A stretch of 37,732 bases of DNA from a virus. The stretch lies in the IMG/VR virus record IMGVR_UViG_3300044994_000562, positions 1-37,732 of that record. One strand, given 5' to 3'. Under the pieces are notes generated by a model. It did no database searches and was not told the origin of the DNA. It worked only from the letters and a program-made list of their open reading frames with translations. The translations under genes and the position numbers were made by a program. This document shows positions 1-33,639 of this stretch, one piece after another. The stretch's first letter is position 1. Each line of letters starts with the position of its first letter.

Positions 1-777
1 TCACCAGTTTCGAATGATCAGCTCCCCCTTGCGGTTCTTGCTGCGGCCGCCACCGCCGACCTGGTAGAGGATGTCCACCTCGTCGATGGTCAAGCCGGCG
101 AACGCCTGGCGCATCTCGGGGATGTCGTTCACCGAGATCACCATGCGGCCCTTGATGGTCCTGGCCAGCTCAGCCATCCGGGCGTACTGCTCCAGCCCGA
201 ATTCCACGCCGTAGCCTTCCGTGCCCCAGTAGGGCGGGTCGCAGTAGAACAGCGTGTGCTCGCGGTCGTACTTGGCGATGCACTCAGCCCAGTTCAGGTG
301 TTCGATGTAGGTCCGGGAGAGCCGCAGGTGGGCGGCGCTGAGGTCTTCTTCCAGCCGCAGCAGGTTGAGCTTGGGCGCGCTGGTGGTCGAGGTGCCGAAG
401 GTGCGGCCCTCCACCTTGGCGCCGAAGGCCATACGCTGGAGATAGTAGAACCTGGCGGCGCGCTGTATGTCCGTCAGGGTTTCCTCGGGTGTCAGCTGTA
501 GCCAGCGGAAGATCTGGCGCGAGGAGAGCGCCCATTTGAACTGTCGGACGAACTCTTCCAGGTGGTGCTTGACGACGCGGTAGAGATTCACGAGGTCGCC
601 ATTCACGTCGTTCAGCACCTCGACCTTCACCGGGTCTTTGAGGAAGTACAGCGCCGCGGCGCCGCAGAACGGCTCGACATAGCAGACGTGTTCGGGGAAC
701 TGCGGCAGGATGTGCTTGGCCAGACGGCGCTTGCCGCCGATCCAGGGGATGATGGGTGTTGCTGCTTGTGCTTCCAT
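1..777 (-). CDS. Phage DNA adenine-N6 methyltransferase (D12/Dam class)
   Basis: Predicted 258-residue enzyme that methylates adenine in DNA, probably to protect phage DNA from host restriction. Visible class motifs are PWIGGKRR near residues 11-18, VEPFCGA at 34-40 (AdoMet binding) and catalytic DPPYWG at 180-185. It is the last late gene before the unseen left end, where Mu carries its own DNA-modification gene mom. I chose ATG 777, which has AAGGG upstream and leads straight into the family start. An in-frame ATG at 933 overlaps the upstream stop as ATGA and would add 52 residues, but that stretch has poorer codon bias and no family resemblance. The function call is firm; the start is less so. 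Confidence 0.9.
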   Translation of the reverse strand: MEAQAATPIIPWIGGKRRLAKHILPQFPEHVCYVEPFCGAAALYFLKDPVKVEVLNDVNGDLVNLYRVVKHHLEEFVRQFKWALSSRQIFRWLQLTPEETLTDIQRAARFYYLQRMAFGAKVEGRTFGTSTTSAPKLNLLRLEEDLSAAHLRLSRTYIEHLNWAECIAKYDREHTLFYCDPPYWGTEGYGVEFGLEQYARMAELARTIKGRMVISVNDIPEMRQAFAGLTIDEVDILYQVGGGGRSKNRKGELIIRNW

Positions 778-929
778 TCCGTGTAAGCCCTTTCTAATTG
801 TTGCAAACGTTGGTAGGCTTTCGGCCGCCGTGTGCACGGTAAGGGGGCCTTGGCCAAGGCTCACAGGTTCGTTCTGTGGGTTGCGGTGGCGGCCGAGGTG
901 TTCCCGCACCACGGCCGTCGCCCTCTTCT

Positions 930-1403
930 TCATGCCGGTTGGAGCAGATCCGGCTCCTCGATCAAGCGCACCTCGTAGGGCAGCATCCAGAGATGCTGCG
1001 GGGTGATCCGATGCAGCGCGTCCGCCCGGAACAGCGGCTGCCCCGTTTCCTGAAACGCCCAGGCCGCCATCTCGCTGCAGAACCAGCGGTCGGCTTCCTG
1101 CCAGTCCCGATGCAGGCCCAACCCGGCCACGCCCATCCAGTCGTAAGGCTTCCCGATCTGGGATGCCGCAGCCGCGATGACGGCAGCCGCATCCGCGCAA
1201 GGGATGGTCATGACGGCCGCACGGCTGGCGTTGGCCAGGCGTGTGGCCAGCAACTCGCGCTCGACGCCGTGGAAGGCCACCGCACCGATGACCGAGGGGC
1301 CGTCGATCAGATCCACGTGGGACCAGGCCGACCAGGTGGCCACGCGGATCAGGGCGCTGCCGGGGTGGCGGCGCCGGGTGAAAAGGAGTTGGACGGCGGA
1401 CAT
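930..1403 (-). CDS. Permuted papain-fold (YiiX/NlpC-P60-like) hydrolase
   Basis: 157-residue protein with His29 in a WSHVDLI context and Cys109 in WFCSEMAAWAF. That order, His before Cys, is typical of circularly permuted papain-fold amidases (YiiX/YebB type). Members cleave amide or ester bonds in peptidoglycan or lipids. No signal peptide is visible. It lies after the tail fibre and DUF4376 genes and before the methylase, so it could be a virion-associated enzyme or an accessory gene acting in the infected cell. The substrate cannot be read from sequence. Start is ATG 1403, immediately after the DUF4376 gene stop. Confidence 0.7.
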   Translation of the reverse strand: MSAVQLLFTRRRHPGSALIRVATWSAWSHVDLIDGPSVIGAVAFHGVERELLATRLANASRAAVMTIPCADAAAVIAAAASQIGKPYDWMGVAGLGLHRDWQEADRWFCSEMAAWAFQETGQPLFRADALHRITPQHLWMLPYEVRLIEEPDLLQPA

Positions 1404-12764: not shown

Positions 12765-14195
12765 TCAGTTACCTCCCTTCAGGGTCAGCAGGTACTCCGA
12801 GGTGATCTCGGTCTCGAAGGTGAGCCGCTCCAGCGGGGGCGGCGGCGTGTACTTGTAGTTGAGCAGCAGGTGCCCGGCCGACAGCTCGGTCTCCGGGTTG
12901 CGCGCCGGGTCATACCAGCAGGCGAAGCCCAGCAGCGCCCCGTCGCCGATCAGCTTCCGGCCGTAGGCGTTTACCGACTCCACCAGGGCGTCGATCGTCG
13001 CCTGGTTGAGCGGCATGTCGATGAACTGCTGGCTGAAGTAGCGGATCGACTCGTTGATCACGTCACCGGTGCGGCGCACGTTCTCGAAGTTGCGCATGTG
13101 GCTGACGGTCGGCCAGGCGGCCGTGCGGTTTCCCCACAAGCGATAGCCCGAGCCGTAGCTGGAGAACACGGTGGTGATGCCCTGCTCGTTGAGGAGATTC
13201 ACCTCGGACTGCGGATCGTCGATCATCGCCGAGAGCTGGCGCTCGACGCCGATCACGCCGGCCAGCTCCTGATTGGAGCTGGACCACCAGAAGCCCTTGT
13301 CCAGATCCACCTTGGCGCGCAGCCCGGCAGCGCGGGCCGACAGCGGCTCCAGGCGCTCGGCGTTCAACACCGGGTCGTACACCTTCACGTGCGGGTAGCA
13401 CAGGCGCGCCCGGTCGCTGGAGGTGTTGAAGTTGATGGTACCGGCCGGGCCGCGGCCGCTGATGGCCTGGGCGTAGGTGGTGCCGATCGGTGCGTCGATG
13501 TAGGTGATGGCGTCCAGCTGGTCGGCCATCGCGATCAGTTCGGTGGCCACCGAGTTCTGGGTGCAGAAGCCGGGGGCGATGAGGATCTTGGCGAAGAAGC
13601 CGAACAGGTTGTAGGTGTCCTTGAGCGCCTTGAGGCCGGTGCGCACGCCTGCCGCATTGACGGTGCCGATGATGTCGGCCGCGGTGACCTTGGTCGGGTC
13701 GGCGTAGTCGTAGCTCGCTTTGCCGCTCGCCCCGGCGGCGAGGTTGCCGCCCTTGACCCGCACCAGCTCGCCGGTGACCAGATCCACCGTGTAGTCGGTG
13801 CCGACCACGTAGGTGACGGTGCCGTCGTTGTTCTTCAGCACCAGGTTGGCCACGGCGCCGTGGGCGAGCTTCACCCGGTCGGTGGAGGCGTCGAAGGTGA
13901 TGGCCTCGTTGGCGACCGCCGTCTTGTGGATCGCCGGGTCGAGCACGTTGATCACGATCACCGTGCCGGCGCCGTGGTCGTAGATCGCGTCCAGCGCCTG
14001 GGGGATGGTGAAGCCGGGCAGCTGCGGACCGAAGGCGGCCGCGTCCTTCTCGGACAGGGACAGCGTGGCGACGTTGACCGCGCCGATCGGGGCGGCGCCG
14101 ATCAGGCCAATCACCGCGCTCTTGACGGTGCGCACCGGGCGCGGGCCGCGCTCGATCTCGATGGTTTCGACGCCGTGCAAGTAGTTAGCGGGCAT
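12765..14195 (-). CDS. FI: Tail sheath protein (P2 FI family)
   Basis: 476-residue contractile sheath subunit. N-terminal YLHGVETIEIERGPRPVRTV followed by VIGLIGAAP is the classical sheath start. The central GSGYRLWGNRTAAWPTVSHM and the C-terminal handshake region (FINMPL-type IDMPLNQATIDALVESV) also match. An inserted strand-rich domain (residues ~110-180) is typical of myophage sheaths. Its start overlaps the gp38-like gene by 11 bases. Confidence 0.93.
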   Translation of the reverse strand: MPANYLHGVETIEIERGPRPVRTVKSAVIGLIGAAPIGAVNVATLSLSEKDAAAFGPQLPGFTIPQALDAIYDHGAGTVIVINVLDPAIHKTAVANEAITFDASTDRVKLAHGAVANLVLKNNDGTVTYVVGTDYTVDLVTGELVRVKGGNLAAGASGKASYDYADPTKVTAADIIGTVNAAGVRTGLKALKDTYNLFGFFAKILIAPGFCTQNSVATELIAMADQLDAITYIDAPIGTTYAQAISGRGPAGTINFNTSSDRARLCYPHVKVYDPVLNAERLEPLSARAAGLRAKVDLDKGFWWSSSNQELAGVIGVERQLSAMIDDPQSEVNLLNEQGITTVFSSYGSGYRLWGNRTAAWPTVSHMRNFENVRRTGDVINESIRYFSQQFIDMPLNQATIDALVESVNAYGRKLIGDGALLGFACWYDPARNPETELSAGHLLLNYKYTPPPPLERLTFETEITSEYLLTLKGGN

Positions 14196-14382: not shown

Positions 14383-14846
14383 GGGGTCTCCTCGTGATTG
14401 ACCAGGGTTAAGAGAGGCGCGTCGCCGACCGTGGCGTCTTCGACCTGCATTGCCTCGGTGGCCACGTCGACCGCGTACTGCCAAAGCCCGGCGGATTCGC
14501 CCAGAAACTTCTCGGAGAGCGCCCGGATCTTCTTGCGGCAGTGGGGTGGCTTGAAGCCGACCAGCGCCAGGCGCACCGAGTCGAGCACGTCGATGGCGCC
14601 GCTCTTGCCGTTGAGCTGGCGCAGCACCACCGTGACGGTGAGCTTGACGGTGCGGTCCTGGACGATGAACTCGGTATCGACGGTCTCACCGAACTGGCCG
14701 CCGAGGTAGCTCACCAGGAGCGCGCCCTTGGGGTGGTTGAGCCGGTACTCGTCCGGCCGCTCCGGGAAATACTCGACCGCCAGCCCCGGCAGCAGGGTGG
14801 CGAGCCGCGCCTTGACGGCGTCGATGATCTGCAGGGTGATGCCCAT
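14379..14846 (-). CDS. Mu gp37-like tail completion protein
   Basis: 155 residues matching the Mu gp37 family: LPGLAVEYFPERPDEYRLNH near residues 19-38, GALLVSYLGGQFGE, and the repeated VTVVLRQLNGKSGAIDVLDS region. Its position between gp36 and the sheath gene is the standard order, and it is likely a tail terminator or head-tail joining component. The start overlaps the gp36 stop. Confidence 0.85.
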   Translation of the reverse strand: MGITLQIIDAVKARLATLLPGLAVEYFPERPDEYRLNHPKGALLVSYLGGQFGETVDTEFIVQDRTVKLTVTVVLRQLNGKSGAIDVLDSVRLALVGFKPPHCRKKIRALSEKFLGESAGLWQYAVDVATEAMQVEDATVGDAPLLTLVNHEETP

Positions 14847-15280
14847 CAGTAGCGCTCCAGCAGATCCGAACCGAAGCGCCGCGGCCGCGCCCGCACCTTC
14901 ATCTCGCCCGGCTCCTGGGCGGCTTCGCCGGTGGGCGCGCCGATGGTCAGCTTGCCGTCGCGGATGGCCTCCAGCATCTGGAGCGAGGATTTGTAGGTGC
15001 GGGTGACCGCGTCGGGCAGCTCGCTGCCTTCCGGCCGGCGGGCGTACAGCCAGTGCCGGGCCAGATTGACCGTGATGTCCTTGACCACGGTCGGCACCGG
15101 CGTGAGCGGCAGGTTGTAGCGGCCGCGCAGGTGCGCATCGACCAGCTCCTCAGCCTGGCGGACGGCTTCATCGACCACCGCCGCGTTCATGGCGGTGGCC
15201 GACTCGTCGTCGCACGATAGCCAGATGAGGGTCTGGGCCGGGATCGCCAGCTGCAGGTCGGCGAGCGAGCAATAGCGCAT
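14846..15280 (-). CDS. Mu gp36-like neck protein (DUF1320)
   Basis: 144 residues of the DUF1320 / Mu gp36 family: N-terminal MRYCSLADLQLAIPAQTLIW, then EELVDAHLRGRYNLPLTPVP near residues 45-64, and LARHWLYARRPE. The family resembles head-tail connector proteins. Start is ATG 15280. It follows the Acb2-like gene after a 9-base gap. Confidence 0.88.
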   Translation of the reverse strand: MRYCSLADLQLAIPAQTLIWLSCDDESATAMNAAVVDEAVRQAEELVDAHLRGRYNLPLTPVPTVVKDITVNLARHWLYARRPEGSELPDAVTRTYKSSLQMLEAIRDGKLTIGAPTGEAAQEPGEMKVRARPRRFGSDLLERY

Positions 15281-15289
15281 GGGGTCGCC

Positions 15290-15583
15290 TTAGAACGTCG
15301 TCGGCCGGGCTACGGCGCTGGTGAGCGCCATGAAGCCCTGCTGCAGGTGGTCCTGGCCGATGGTCAGCCAGCGGTCGGCCTCGAAGGACTCGAAGCCCAC
15401 GGCCAGCAGGGTTTCGCCGCCCACCTGGACGGGCTCGGCCTCGACCGCGGGGAGCAGCTTCTCGCGCAACTTCTCGACGAGCTGCCCGACCTCCTCGGCC
15501 TTGGCCTTCACCTCGTTCATGAGGGCGATCTCCTCAGCCGTCAGGTCGCGGTAGCCCTTGATGTGCTGGTGCTGGTTGTCCAT
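15290..15583 (-). CDS. Acb2/Tad1-hairpin-like protein, candidate anti-CBASS sponge
   Basis: 97 residues with N-terminal HIKGYRDLTAEEIALMNEVK, a helical middle and C-terminal WLTIGQDHLQQGFMALTSAV followed by ARPTTF. This two-ended pattern is that of Acb2, a phage protein that binds cyclic di- and trinucleotides and so blocks CBASS defence. From memory, Acb2 genes lie beside capsid genes in Mu-like phages of Pseudomonas, and this gene lies in the same setting (capsid, decoration, this gene, gp36). Between the two conserved ends sits an unusual Val/Glu-rich insert (EAEPVQVGGETLLAVGFESF, residues ~48-67). Ligand binding is inferred, not shown. Confidence 0.7.
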   Translation of the reverse strand: MDNQHQHIKGYRDLTAEEIALMNEVKAKAEEVGQLVEKLREKLLPAVEAEPVQVGGETLLAVGFESFEADRWLTIGQDHLQQGFMALTSAVARPTTF

Positions 15584-15585
15584 CG

Positions 15586-15918
15586 TTAGATGCCCCGGAC
15601 GATGCGGATCACGTCGCCGGCCGCGGCCGCGGCGTCGAGCGCGAAGCCGTTGGAGACGCCGGCGGCCTTGGTGATCGCTTGGCCGGCGGCGTTGGACTCG
15701 ACCTCGGCGCCGGCGGCGATCGCGGCGCCGGCCTCCACCAGCAGGATGCCGTGGGTGTTCACCGGGGCCTGTTCGCCGGCGTCGGCGCCGGCCTCGACCA
15801 CGCCCAGGGCCTTGCTCCCCGCGGCGCAGACGTTCCCGTCAAAACCGGCGAAGCGGAAGCGGCTCAGGGCAGCCGCGGCGAGGACCGTGGTGGTCAGGAT
15901 GACTTGTTGCGTCTTCAC
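15586..15918 (-). CDS. Capsid decoration protein (DUF2190-like)
   Basis: 110-residue Ala/Gly-rich beta protein: ALGVVEAGADAGEQAPVNTH, ILLVEAGAAIAAGAEVES, then GFALDAAAAAGDVIRIVRGI. These are the hallmarks of DUF2190-type head decoration/stabilisation proteins. Start is GTG 15918, overlapping the upstream stop (GTGA). It is encoded two genes after the major capsid. Confidence 0.8.
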   Translation of the reverse strand: MKTQQVILTTTVLAAAALSRFRFAGFDGNVCAAGSKALGVVEAGADAGEQAPVNTHGILLVEAGAAIAAGAEVESNAAGQAITKAAGVSNGFALDAAAAAGDVIRIVRGI

Positions 15919-16103
15919 GCTTTACCTCCTTTCTTGGGGGTCTTGGTGTCGTCGCCGTTGCCGGCGGCAGTGGCGATCGGGATGACGTGGTCGCCGAGGC
16001 CGGCCGCTTCCTTGTCGGTGAGCAGGATCTCGGCGCCTTCGTCGTAGCGCTCGCCGTCGTGGAGGATCGGCGTGGTGCCGACCTGGTAGGGTTTCTTCTC
16101 CAT
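15915..16103 (-). CDS. Small head-region protein of unknown function
   Basis: 62 residues: MEKKPYQVGTTPILHDGERY, then LTDKEAAGLGDHVIPI and a Lys-rich tail. Short proteins of this pattern recur between capsid and decoration genes in Mu-like phages, but no role is known. Start is ATG 16103. The stop overlaps the next GTG start, so it is probably translationally coupled. Confidence 0.7.
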   Translation of the reverse strand: MEKKPYQVGTTPILHDGERYDEGAEILLTDKEAAGLGDHVIPIATAAGNGDDTKTPKKGGKA

Positions 16104-16117
16104 CAGATCGGCTCCCG

Positions 16118-17044
16118 TCAGGCGTTGGTGTCGGCGATCAGGTAGCCGGCCTCGGCACCCAGCAGATACGGACGGAACACGTCGGTATTGCGGATGAGTT
16201 CGAGCTTGCCGTCTTCGGTCCGCGTGTCGATCTGCGGCATGCCCTTCTTGCGCAGGGTGTAGCCGAAGGACGGCTCGTAGGGGGTGCGCTCGGCGCCCTG
16301 GCGCTGCGGCGCGACGTAGGCGAGCACGATGTTGTCGCCCCAGATGTCGCCGAACGTGCCCAGGTCGTTGGAGTAGACGCTGTTGCCGATCACGATGCGC
16401 TCGATCTCCAGGATCTCCTTCAGCAGCTCGACGGTCAGCACGCCTTTCATGGAGTACTTGATGCGCTCCAGGAATTGCGGGTGCTGCTTGATCGCCTTCC
16501 AAGAGGCGGCGCCGATGACGGCAGTGTTCGGGCGCTTGCCGATCTTGCCGCGCACCGCTTCCTTGCCATCCTCGAAGACGCCGATCGGGTCGGAGTTGGC
16601 CTTGTCGGTGAAGCGGCTGGTGCCGGCGAGGACGATCTTGTTGCTGGCGGCGTAATTGGCCGGGTTCTGCGCCAGGTCGGCCACCTTCTTCTCGTGGCGC
16701 AGGCGGATGCCCTCGGTCACCACGTGGGTGCCGTGAGCTTCGAGGGGGAAGGCGGATTCGTCGCTCTCGCGGTAGTCGATCGGGTATTCCAGATCGTGCT
16801 CGTCGAGGTTGACGTCGACCGAGTCGATGTCCTCCGGGTTAATGCGGTTGGACTTCGCCCGCAGCGCGCGTTCGGTGTTGTAGATCTTGAACGCTTCCTT
16901 GCCGAACTTCGGGATCTTGCCGCCTTCCTTGTCGACGGGGACGAAGGGGAAGAGGACATCGCCCACCAGTTCGGCGTTGCTGTAGCCGATGGCGAGGTTG
17001 GTCAGAACCGGGTCAACGACCCGCAGGTTGGATAAACGGCCCAT
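16118..17044 (-). CDS. Major capsid protein
   Basis: 308-residue major head subunit. N-terminal MGRLSNLRVVDPVLTNLAIG, AELVGDVLFPFVPVDKEGGK and C-terminal TRTEDGKLELIRNTDVFRPY match the capsid family of BcepMu-type and related transposable phages (HK97-fold, E-like branch). It lies directly after the protease/scaffold gene with a 19-base gap. The sequence is complete. Confidence 0.88.
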   Translation of the reverse strand: MGRLSNLRVVDPVLTNLAIGYSNAELVGDVLFPFVPVDKEGGKIPKFGKEAFKIYNTERALRAKSNRINPEDIDSVDVNLDEHDLEYPIDYRESDESAFPLEAHGTHVVTEGIRLRHEKKVADLAQNPANYAASNKIVLAGTSRFTDKANSDPIGVFEDGKEAVRGKIGKRPNTAVIGAASWKAIKQHPQFLERIKYSMKGVLTVELLKEILEIERIVIGNSVYSNDLGTFGDIWGDNIVLAYVAPQRQGAERTPYEPSFGYTLRKKGMPQIDTRTEDGKLELIRNTDVFRPYLLGAEAGYLIADTNA

Positions 17045-30529: not shown

Positions 30530-32320
30530 ATGAGCGCGCTTCTCGGGGAACTCGACTACCTGCGCGGCCTGGCCGGCAAGCTCGCCACGGCCAAGCATGG
30601 CGAAAAGGGCTCGCTCATCCAGGCGGCGTCCGAGTTCCTGCGCTGCTCGCCGCAGGAGGTCTATCGCCGCCTGGAGGACGTGGGTTTCAAGAGCGGCCGC
30701 AAGCCCCGCGCCGATCGCGGCAAGACGGCGGTGACCGAGGAGCTGGCCCGCAAGGCCGCCGGCATGGTGCATGTGGCCATGCGCGCCAACGGCAAGAAGA
30801 CGCTGGCGATCAAGGACGCGCTGGAGATCCTCAAGGAGGACGGCCACGGCGAAGTGGATACCGAAACCGGCGAGATTAAGCCGATCGACGTGTCCGCCAG
30901 CACCCTGTCGCGCGCGATGCGCCGCTACAACTGCCACCCGGAGCAGCTGCGCACCCCCACGGCCCACGTGAGCATGCGCAGCCTGCACCCCAACCACGTG
31001 TGGCAGATCGACGCCTCGGTGTGCGTGCTCTTCTACCTGCCCCGCGGCGGCCTGGCTGTGATGGAGGAGAAGGAGTTCTACAAGAACAAGCCGCAGAACA
31101 TCAAGCGCATCGAGAACGACCGGGTGATCCGCTACGCGGTCACCGACCACTTCAGCAGCGACTTCTACCTGGAATATGTTCTGGGGGCGGAGACCGCCGA
31201 GAACCTCACGCGGGTGTTCCTCAATGCCATCCAGGCGCGCGCCACCGACGATCCCCTCTGCGGCGTGCCCTTCAACCTGATGATGGACCCCGGAAGCGCC
31301 AACACCTCGGGCCTGTTCATGAACCTGCTCGAGCGGCTCAAGGTGAATCCGATCGTGCACCTGCCCGGCGCCGCGCGGGTGACCGGCCAGGTCGAGAAGA
31401 CACACGACATCATCGAGTGCAAGTTCGAGTCGCGCCTGGCTTTCCATCGCGTAGCCGACCTGGCGGAACTCAACGCCCGCGCCACCCAGTGGCGCAAGGT
31501 GTTCAACGCCACGGCCCGTCATAGCCGCCACGGCCTGACCCGAAACGCCATGTGGCTGACGATCAAGGAGGAGCAGCTGCGCAAGGCGCCGCCGCTGGAG
31601 CTGTGCCGCGACCTGGTCACCACCCGGCCGGTGGAGGTCACCGTGCGCGGCGATCTCAAGGTCTCCTACGCCATCAAGGGCTACGGCAGCAACGAGTACG
31701 ACGTGCGCTACATCCCCGGCGTGGTGCCCAAGGCCAAGCTCACCGTGGTGGTCAATCCCTACCGGGCGCCGGCGATCGACGTGCTGGTGCTCGATCAGGA
31801 GGGCAAGGAAGTGGCCTACACGGTGGAGCCGGTGAAGAAGACGGACGGCGCCTTCGACGCGGCTGCTCCGATCATCGGCGCCACCTACCACGCCATGCCG
31901 CAGAGCGTGGTGGACGATGCCCGCAAGGCCGTCATCAAGGACGCCTACGGCGCCGAGAACGAGCGCGAGGTGGACGCCAAGCGCAAGGCCAAGACGCCGG
32001 CCTACGAGGGGCAGATCAACGTCTTCGCCGACGTCGAGAACGCGACCGTGCCGACGTACATGCCCAAGCGCGGCCGGGATCTCGGCATCGACGGCCGCGG
32101 CCGGGAGATCGTGCCGCTCAACCACGTCGACGCCGCCAAGCTGCTCAAGGCCAAGCTGGGCGACGCCTGGACCGCAGACCGCTTCCAGTGGCTGGCACAG
32201 CGCTTCCCCGAGGGCGTTCCCCAAGACCAGCTCGACGCGATCGCCGCCGAGCTTTCCGGCCCCCGCGCGGGCCTCTCAAAGCCGCTCACGCTGGTGCGGG
32301 CGGCGTCAGGAGGTGAGTGA
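30530..32320 (+). CDS. tnpA: DDE transposase A (Mu A / BcepMu TnpA-like)
   Basis: 596 residues. N-terminal DNA-binding region to ~residue 140 (FLRCSPQEVYRRLEDVGFKS), then an integrase core: Asp161 in HVWQIDAS, Asp253 in LMMDPGSAN and Glu289 in TGQVEKTH. Asp253 and Glu289 are separated by 35 residues, the classical DD(35)E spacing. The C-terminal region is basic beta-barrel-like (VEVTVRGDLKVSYAIKGYGS). It catalyses strand transfer for integration and replicative transposition. Shorter than Mu A, closer to the Tn552/TniA-like transposases of BcepMu relatives. It overlaps the ATPase start by one base. Confidence 0.95.
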   Translation: MSALLGELDYLRGLAGKLATAKHGEKGSLIQAASEFLRCSPQEVYRRLEDVGFKSGRKPRADRGKTAVTEELARKAAGMVHVAMRANGKKTLAIKDALEILKEDGHGEVDTETGEIKPIDVSASTLSRAMRRYNCHPEQLRTPTAHVSMRSLHPNHVWQIDASVCVLFYLPRGGLAVMEEKEFYKNKPQNIKRIENDRVIRYAVTDHFSSDFYLEYVLGAETAENLTRVFLNAIQARATDDPLCGVPFNLMMDPGSANTSGLFMNLLERLKVNPIVHLPGAARVTGQVEKTHDIIECKFESRLAFHRVADLAELNARATQWRKVFNATARHSRHGLTRNAMWLTIKEEQLRKAPPLELCRDLVTTRPVEVTVRGDLKVSYAIKGYGSNEYDVRYIPGVVPKAKLTVVVNPYRAPAIDVLVLDQEGKEVAYTVEPVKKTDGAFDAAAPIIGATYHAMPQSVVDDARKAVIKDAYGAENEREVDAKRKAKTPAYEGQINVFADVENATVPTYMPKRGRDLGIDGRGREIVPLNHVDAAKLLKAKLGDAWTADRFQWLAQRFPEGVPQDQLDAIAAELSGPRAGLSKPLTLVRAASGGE

Positions 32321-33639
32321 TGCTGAAACTGAAGAATGTCCTCAAGAGGCTCGGCTGCAAGCAAGCCGACCTGGCCAAGGCGCTCAAGGTGTCGCCGGCC
32401 ACGGTGGCGCAATTGGTCAACCACAGCGAGTGGCCGCTGAGTCTCGACCGCAGCGCGCTGGAGGAGGGTATTCGCGCCTTTCTCACGGCGGCCGGCGCCG
32501 AGGAGGCCGAACTGGCCACGGCCTTCGAGGAAGTCGATCAGATGGATCTGCGGGAGCGCGTGCGCGCATTTCTCGCGGACATCGGTGCCACGCCGGCCGA
32601 TCTGGCCGGCGTTCTTGAAGAAGTGAGCGAGCCGCGCGCCAACGCAGCCCGCTCGGTCTCCCCGTCGAAAACGAGCGCCAGCGAAGTTTCGGCGTCAGCC
32701 AAAACTCAACCCGATCTCAACCAGGAGGACTCCATGCTACTCCGTAAGCAGACCCTGTTTCCAGCCGCCCGCAAGCACTTCGGCCTGTTCCGCGACCCGT
32801 TCGCCGAGGACGCCATCCAGTCCCACGAGGACATGTACGTGAGCCCCGACATCCGCTACGTGCGGGAGGCGATGCTCCAGACCGCCAAGTTCGGCGGACT
32901 GCTCGCCGTGGTGGCCGAGTCCGGCGCCGGCAAGACGACGCTGATGCGCGACCTGGAAGACCGCATCGTGCGCGAGAACCAGCAGATCGTGCTGATCAAG
33001 CCCTACGTGCTCGGCATGGAGGACAACGATCAGAAGGGCAAGACCCTCAAGGCCACCCACATCGCCGAGGCGATCATGGCCACCGTCGCGCCCCTGGAGC
33101 GCCCGAAGAGCAGCCCCGAGGCGCGCTTCCGCCAACTGCACCAGGTGCTGCGCGAGTCTCACGCTGCCGGCTACCGCCACTGCCTGGTGATCGACGAGGC
33201 CCACGCGCTGCCGATCCCGACGATCAAGCACCTCAAGCGCTTCTTCGAGCTGGAGATGGGCTTCAAGAAGCTGCTCTCGATCATCCTGATCGGCCAGCCG
33301 GAACTGAAGGCCAAGCTCTCCGAGCGCAACCAGGACGTGCGCGAGGTGGTGCAGCGCTGTGAGATGGTCGAGCTGGCGCCGCTCGACGGCGGTCGCCTGG
33401 AGGAGTACCTCAAGTTCAAGTTCGACCGCCTGGGCAAGCCGGTGGGCGAGGTGATCGATACCAGCGGCGTCGAGGCCCTGCGCGCCAAGCTGACCGTCGC
33501 TACCCCCCGCCGCGACCGGCCGGAAACGGTGTCGCTGCTGTATCCCCTGGCCGTGGGCAACCTGCTCACTGCCTGCATGAACCTCGCCGCCGAGATCGGC
33601 GTGCCGGTGGTGAATGCCGACGTGGTCAAAGGGGTGTGA
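32320..33639 (+). CDS. tnpB: Transposition AAA+ ATPase B (MuB / TniB-like) with N-terminal HTH
   Basis: 439 residues from ATG 32320 (AGGAGGT five bases upstream; a GTG at 32317 is less likely). Residues 1-45 form an HTH (GCKQADLAKALKVSPATVAQ). A linker precedes the AAA+ domain: Walker A ESGAGKTT near 200-207, Walker B LVIDEAHAL with Asp292-Glu293. It selects target DNA and activates the transposase. An internal in-frame ATG (32734, residue 139) with a near-perfect AGGAGGA site could yield a 301-residue ATPase lacking the HTH. Confidence 0.93.
   Translation: MLKLKNVLKRLGCKQADLAKALKVSPATVAQLVNHSEWPLSLDRSALEEGIRAFLTAAGAEEAELATAFEEVDQMDLRERVRAFLADIGATPADLAGVLEEVSEPRANAARSVSPSKTSASEVSASAKTQPDLNQEDSMLLRKQTLFPAARKHFGLFRDPFAEDAIQSHEDMYVSPDIRYVREAMLQTAKFGGLLAVVAESGAGKTTLMRDLEDRIVRENQQIVLIKPYVLGMEDNDQKGKTLKATHIAEAIMATVAPLERPKSSPEARFRQLHQVLRESHAAGYRHCLVIDEAHALPIPTIKHLKRFFELEMGFKKLLSIILIGQPELKAKLSERNQDVREVVQRCEMVELAPLDGGRLEEYLKFKFDRLGKPVGEVIDTSGVEALRAKLTVATPRRDRPETVSLLYPLAVGNLLTACMNLAAEIGVPVVNADVVKGV
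32722..32736 (+). promoter_or_regulatory. Internal ribosome binding site in ATPase gene
   Basis: AGGAGGA followed by ATG 32734 in the ATPase frame, at the join between the HTH/linker part and the AAA+ core. It is as strong as the site of the full-length start. Confidence 0.5.

Follow-up and report, generated by a model that had tools for sequence, protein, structure and literature searches.

The window, that is, the whole stretch of DNA that was analysed, is a viral contig from IMG/VR, 37,732 bases long, and encodes a Mu-like transposable phage. Besides the transposase, the AAA transposition protein and the tail sheath (Table 1), it also encodes terminase, portal, protease, capsid, tape measure and fibre proteins. 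The gene considered here is a minus-strand ORF of 97 aa with an ATG start and a TAA stop, which lies between a cement gene (2-base gap) and a gp36-like adaptor gene (9-base gap). The original prediction gave no strand for it, and the same interval (15290-15583) is also open when read on the plus strand. The two conserved family ends that had been claimed, the peptides IKGYRDLTAEEIALMNE and QQGFMALTSAVARPTTF, are present exactly in the 97-aa ORF. Pairwise dN/dS values against relatives 72-84% identical are about 0.18-0.31 (Nei-Gojobori), which shows that the gene is maintained under purifying selection. At the contig edge (window 1-1200, minus strand) there is a DNA methyltransferase gene (phrog_56), a possible counter-defence gene.

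Table 1 Features of the locus. Positions refer to the window. Column Basis denotes the match, model or alignment behind each assignment.
Feature	Position	Strand	Basis
Tail sheath	12765-14195		
Downstream neighbour: Mu gp36-like head-tail adaptor	14846..15280	-	PF07030 E 1.4e-36, phrog_195
acb2-like gene, cyclic-oligonucleotide sponge candidate, 97 aa	15290..15583	-	PF24729, PDB p26/Acb2, AF2 fold
Ser89 codon AGC; Arg (CGC) in all other examined homologs	15317..15319	-	Alignment
Arg71 codon (position of Arg67 in PaMx33 Acb2)	15371..15373	-	Alignment
Central insert (residues 50-61), tip of the helical hairpin; beta-hairpin predicted	15401..15436	-	AF2 strands 50-54, 57-61
Lys26 codon, pocket lysine	15506..15508	-	100/103 distinct aligned homologs keep Lys
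Tyr11 codon (= Tyr8 of T4 Acb2)	15551..15553	-	Alignment
Upstream neighbour: phage cement / head scaffolding-type protein	15586..15918	-	PF09956 E 1.3e-13, phrog_673
Small ORF between cement and capsid genes, part of it DUF7210-like	15915..16169	-	PF23843 E 2.1e-6, 27.6 bits vs cut-off 27
Major capsid protein	16118..17044	-	phrog_1005 E 9.7e-114, PF03864
Transposase	30530-32320		
AAA transposition protein	32317-33639		

The Pfam profile PF24729 (Acb2_Tad1_hairpin) matches the ORF over its complete length (profile positions 1-58) with an E-value of 1.5e-15 and 57.6 bits, the curated cut-off being 27 bits. A phmmer search against PDB chains returned the p26/Acb2 protein of a Pseudomonas phage (E 4.4e-14, query 1-97) in the 8h2j and 8ixz sets, which are solved Acb2 structures, and no significant match beyond these two p26 Acb2 entries. 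The PaMx33 protein that we used for comparison is identical to PaP2 p26. Matches to the 97-aa protein were found by tblastn in 222 phage records. Such matches are well outside what chance would produce. PADLOC is without a model for an acb2-like gene. In Burkholderia aenigmatica, a second acb2-family gene that is JBD67-like (L140, G001:C28:21283-21573) stands beside the copy closest to that of the window.

The AlphaFold2 (AF2) prediction, a monomer modelled from an input of 34 sequences, has a pLDDT of 86, with helices at residues 4-7, 16-43 and 64-92 and a beta-hairpin at 50-61. The model is that of an Acb2 protomer, with a short N-terminal helix followed by a long antiparallel hairpin. The top Foldseek matches were 8h2j, 8h2x and T4 Vs.4 (7uq2), with E-values from 9e-5 to 1e-2 and a probability of 1.00, and the top three in VIA-align were 7uq2 (Z 9.8), 8h2j (Z 9.4) and 8h2x (Z 9.2) over 86-89 residues. 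Since Z values of 9-10 are common for helical hairpins, they are not strong alone and add to the sequence evidence. The comparison with Acb2 by structure prediction, which had been proposed as a check, thus gave a helical hairpin protomer with Acb2 and Vs.4 as the best folds, at the level of a monomer model.

According to the alignment, the dinucleotide-binding Tyr (Tyr11) and the pocket Lys (Lys26) are kept, and so is Arg71. Lys26 presumably contacts the dinucleotide phosphates, and we take the PaMx33 equivalent of Arg71 to serve the trinucleotide site. Changing Tyr8 of T4 Acb2 to Ala abolishes cyclic dinucleotide binding (PMC12657218, PMC12657230). Four genomes of the same order (L141-L144) have short, divergent PF24729 proteins whose start region contains ITGHKPLNAAQ; in these proteins, His replaces the binding Tyr and the ligand may be another one. 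For the gene of the window, the PF24729 score above cut-off, the full-length match to characterised Acb2, the fold, the ligand-site residues and the slot shared with JBD67 (see below) all agree with the Acb2-like identity originally assigned to it. It is a genuine member of the Acb2 family, ordinary apart from one amino-acid change.

The central insert, which had been described as unusual and as a possible cause of a different ligand preference, did not stand up to comparison. Homolog lengths of about 73 to 111 aa were seen, and nearly all of this variation is confined to the tip that joins the two long helices. Since the closest relatives have the same form (98-99 aa), the insert characterises a subfamily, at a loop whose length is free to vary. 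Judging from the order of secondary structure elements, it would be located at the end of the hairpin opposite Tyr11 and the C-terminus. Its tip position, the free variation in length and the predicted small beta-hairpin leave an effect on ligand preference without support; if anything alters binding in this copy, Ser89 is a better candidate than the insert.

The location beside capsid genes, as reported for acb2 in Mu-like Pseudomonas phages, was borne out both by the gene order and by JBD67, which carries acb2 in the same slot. The gene stands directly before a gp36-like gene in JBD67, vB_Pae-SS2019XII and Leptolyngbya phage Lsp-JY19, and in Komp_PAO1_1 the slot is empty, the cement and gp36-like genes adjoining directly. 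Among 75 distinct IMG/VR loci having both neighbours (a searched sample and not a frequency), there is no room for a gene in 59, acb2 is present in 10 and something else in 6. The 59 empty loci and the 10 with acb2 show that acb2 is a clean accessory cassette. It is documented as an optional cassette at one fixed position in Mu-like head operons of unrelated hosts. Over the 11 kb head and tail region, megablast found no phage record with similarity at the DNA level. No sigma-70-like promoter was found near acb2, and the most economical view is that the gene would be transcribed as part of the late operon; this promoter result and the gene order both fit such expression. In the Rhodobacter phage RcapMu, gp44 (L058 5545-5835) occupies the acb2 slot; annotated as a hypothetical protein with similarity to a cyclic-nucleotide binding domain, it aligns with Acb2 and has an extra C-terminal tail. 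Other ORFs lie between the cement and gp36 genes in three related phages (L269, L270 and L271), and the slot may therefore host other accessory genes as well; in L270 and L271 the products are about 140 aa long and their N-terminus is hydrophobic and signal-like.

The Pfam profile is named for both Acb2 and Tad1 and covers the hairpin that they share, which would also be consistent with a Tad1-type sponge acting on gcADPR against Thoeris. In the Tad1 fold, an N-terminal antiparallel beta-sheet (beta1-4) precedes two long helices (PMC12043709). This domain is absent here: the protein starts at the Acb2 N-terminus MDNQH, the AF2 model is without N-terminal strands, the full-length matches are to Acb2, and there is no Tad1 among the PDB sequence matches. 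We consider Tad1 membership very unlikely and rejected it. The gene could also be thought to encode a protein for head structure or assembly whose resemblance to Acb2 is incidental, since it is on the same strand as the cement and gp36 genes and separated from them by short gaps. However, the slot is empty in 59 of the 75 relatives with the same neighbours, so that acb2 is dispensable for assembly, and homologs are located elsewhere, beside a MazG-like gene in PaMx33 and among non-structural genes in T4-like phages. A structural role is accordingly hard to credit, and it was rejected because the slot is usually empty.

The remaining alternative concerns position 89, which is Ser in this copy and Arg in all 108 other distinct homologs examined (109 in total). 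Of these 108, 85 carry the N-terminal search pattern, and their retrieval is thus independent of position 89. The equivalent residue is also Arg in T4-type Acb2, in JBD67 and in RcapMu gp44. A single C to A change accounts for the Ser codon. The counterpart of T4 Phe82 in the alignment is Ala92, which lies one turn of the helix from Ser89. In T4 Acb2, Phe82 stacks on the bound nucleotide, and its replacement by Cys (F82C) reduces binding and allows escape from Panoptes (PMC12657218). Because of this proximity, binding by the present copy might be weaker or otherwise altered. These points favour a decayed or weakened Acb2 in which the change from Arg89 to Ser lowers cyclic nucleotide binding, either by drift or by escape from sponge-triggered systems such as Panoptes. 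We nevertheless regard such a loss as unlikely, since the gene is otherwise intact and under purifying selection with Tyr11, Lys26 and Arg71 kept, the accessible Acb2 literature gave no role for the conserved C-terminal Arg in binding, and a sequencing or assembly error in the metagenomic contig is a possible source of Ser89. It is a speculative and improbable suggestion that this allele, having Ser for the family-wide Arg together with a beta-hairpin tip, is a sponge of changed or narrowed ligand range, which might for example have lost dinucleotides but retained trinucleotides, and that selection perhaps favoured it because it evades defences that sense sponges, such as Panoptes. Ser89, which occurs naturally at a position that otherwise never varies, could serve for testing the contribution of the C-terminal Arg to ligand binding.

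The product of the gene is very probably an anti-CBASS sponge of the Acb2 family, and the gene itself is an accessory one within the late head operon of a Mu-like phage whose tail, given the sheath gene, is contractile. In the Acb2 hexamer, dinucleotides occupy three pockets between protomers, and trinucleotides sit at either end of a central channel (PMC12043709, PMC10419184), and further Acb2 biochemistry has been reported (PMC12657218). By homology, the protomers predicted here, each with a short N-terminal helix and an antiparallel helical hairpin, would assemble as a hexamer. Cyclic dinucleotides would be held between head-to-head protomers, with Tyr11 stacking on the bases and Lys26 placed on the phosphates, and cyclic trinucleotides would be bound at separate three-fold sites. 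The signals would then be sequestered without cleavage, and CBASS effectors would stay inactive during phage assembly. For this copy, hexamer formation, binding, protection from CBASS and late expression are expected by analogy with the characterised proteins. In five bacterial genomes carrying relatives of the gene, no SMODS-type CD-NTase was found, a search that covers one CBASS family only; a SAVED search of five relative-carrying genomes gave no match, and its control was equally silent. The conclusions on CBASS evasion are themselves already known.

Compared with known systems, the PaMx33/PaP2 Acb2 (8H2J, 8H2X, 8IXZ) is alike in its full-length alignment, with the MDNQH-IKGYRDL start and the C-terminal helix, in its predicted protomer fold and in the equivalents of Tyr11, Lys26 and Arg67. 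PaMx33 is among the phages reported to be naturally CBASS-resistant through acb2 (PMC12043709). The two proteins are about 39% identical and differ in length (97 aa here and 93 aa in PaMx33/PaP2), in the tip, which is a predicted beta-hairpin here, and in having Ser89 here for Arg85. The PaMx33 gene has primase- and MazG-like genes next to it, whereas that of the window is in the head operon. The Acb2 of JBD67 (Pseudomonas Beetrevirus; JX495043 22985-23311) belongs to the same family and has the same slot after the capsid region, directly before the gp36-like gene, although it is 37% identical over the alignment, has a longer tip and keeps the C-terminal Arg. T4 Acb2 (Vs.4, 7UQ2) resembles the protein in fold (VIA Z 9.8) and in the conserved Tyr8 and pocket Lys; it is, however, only about 23% identical, keeps its Arg (Arg79) and has Phe82 where Ala92 is found here.
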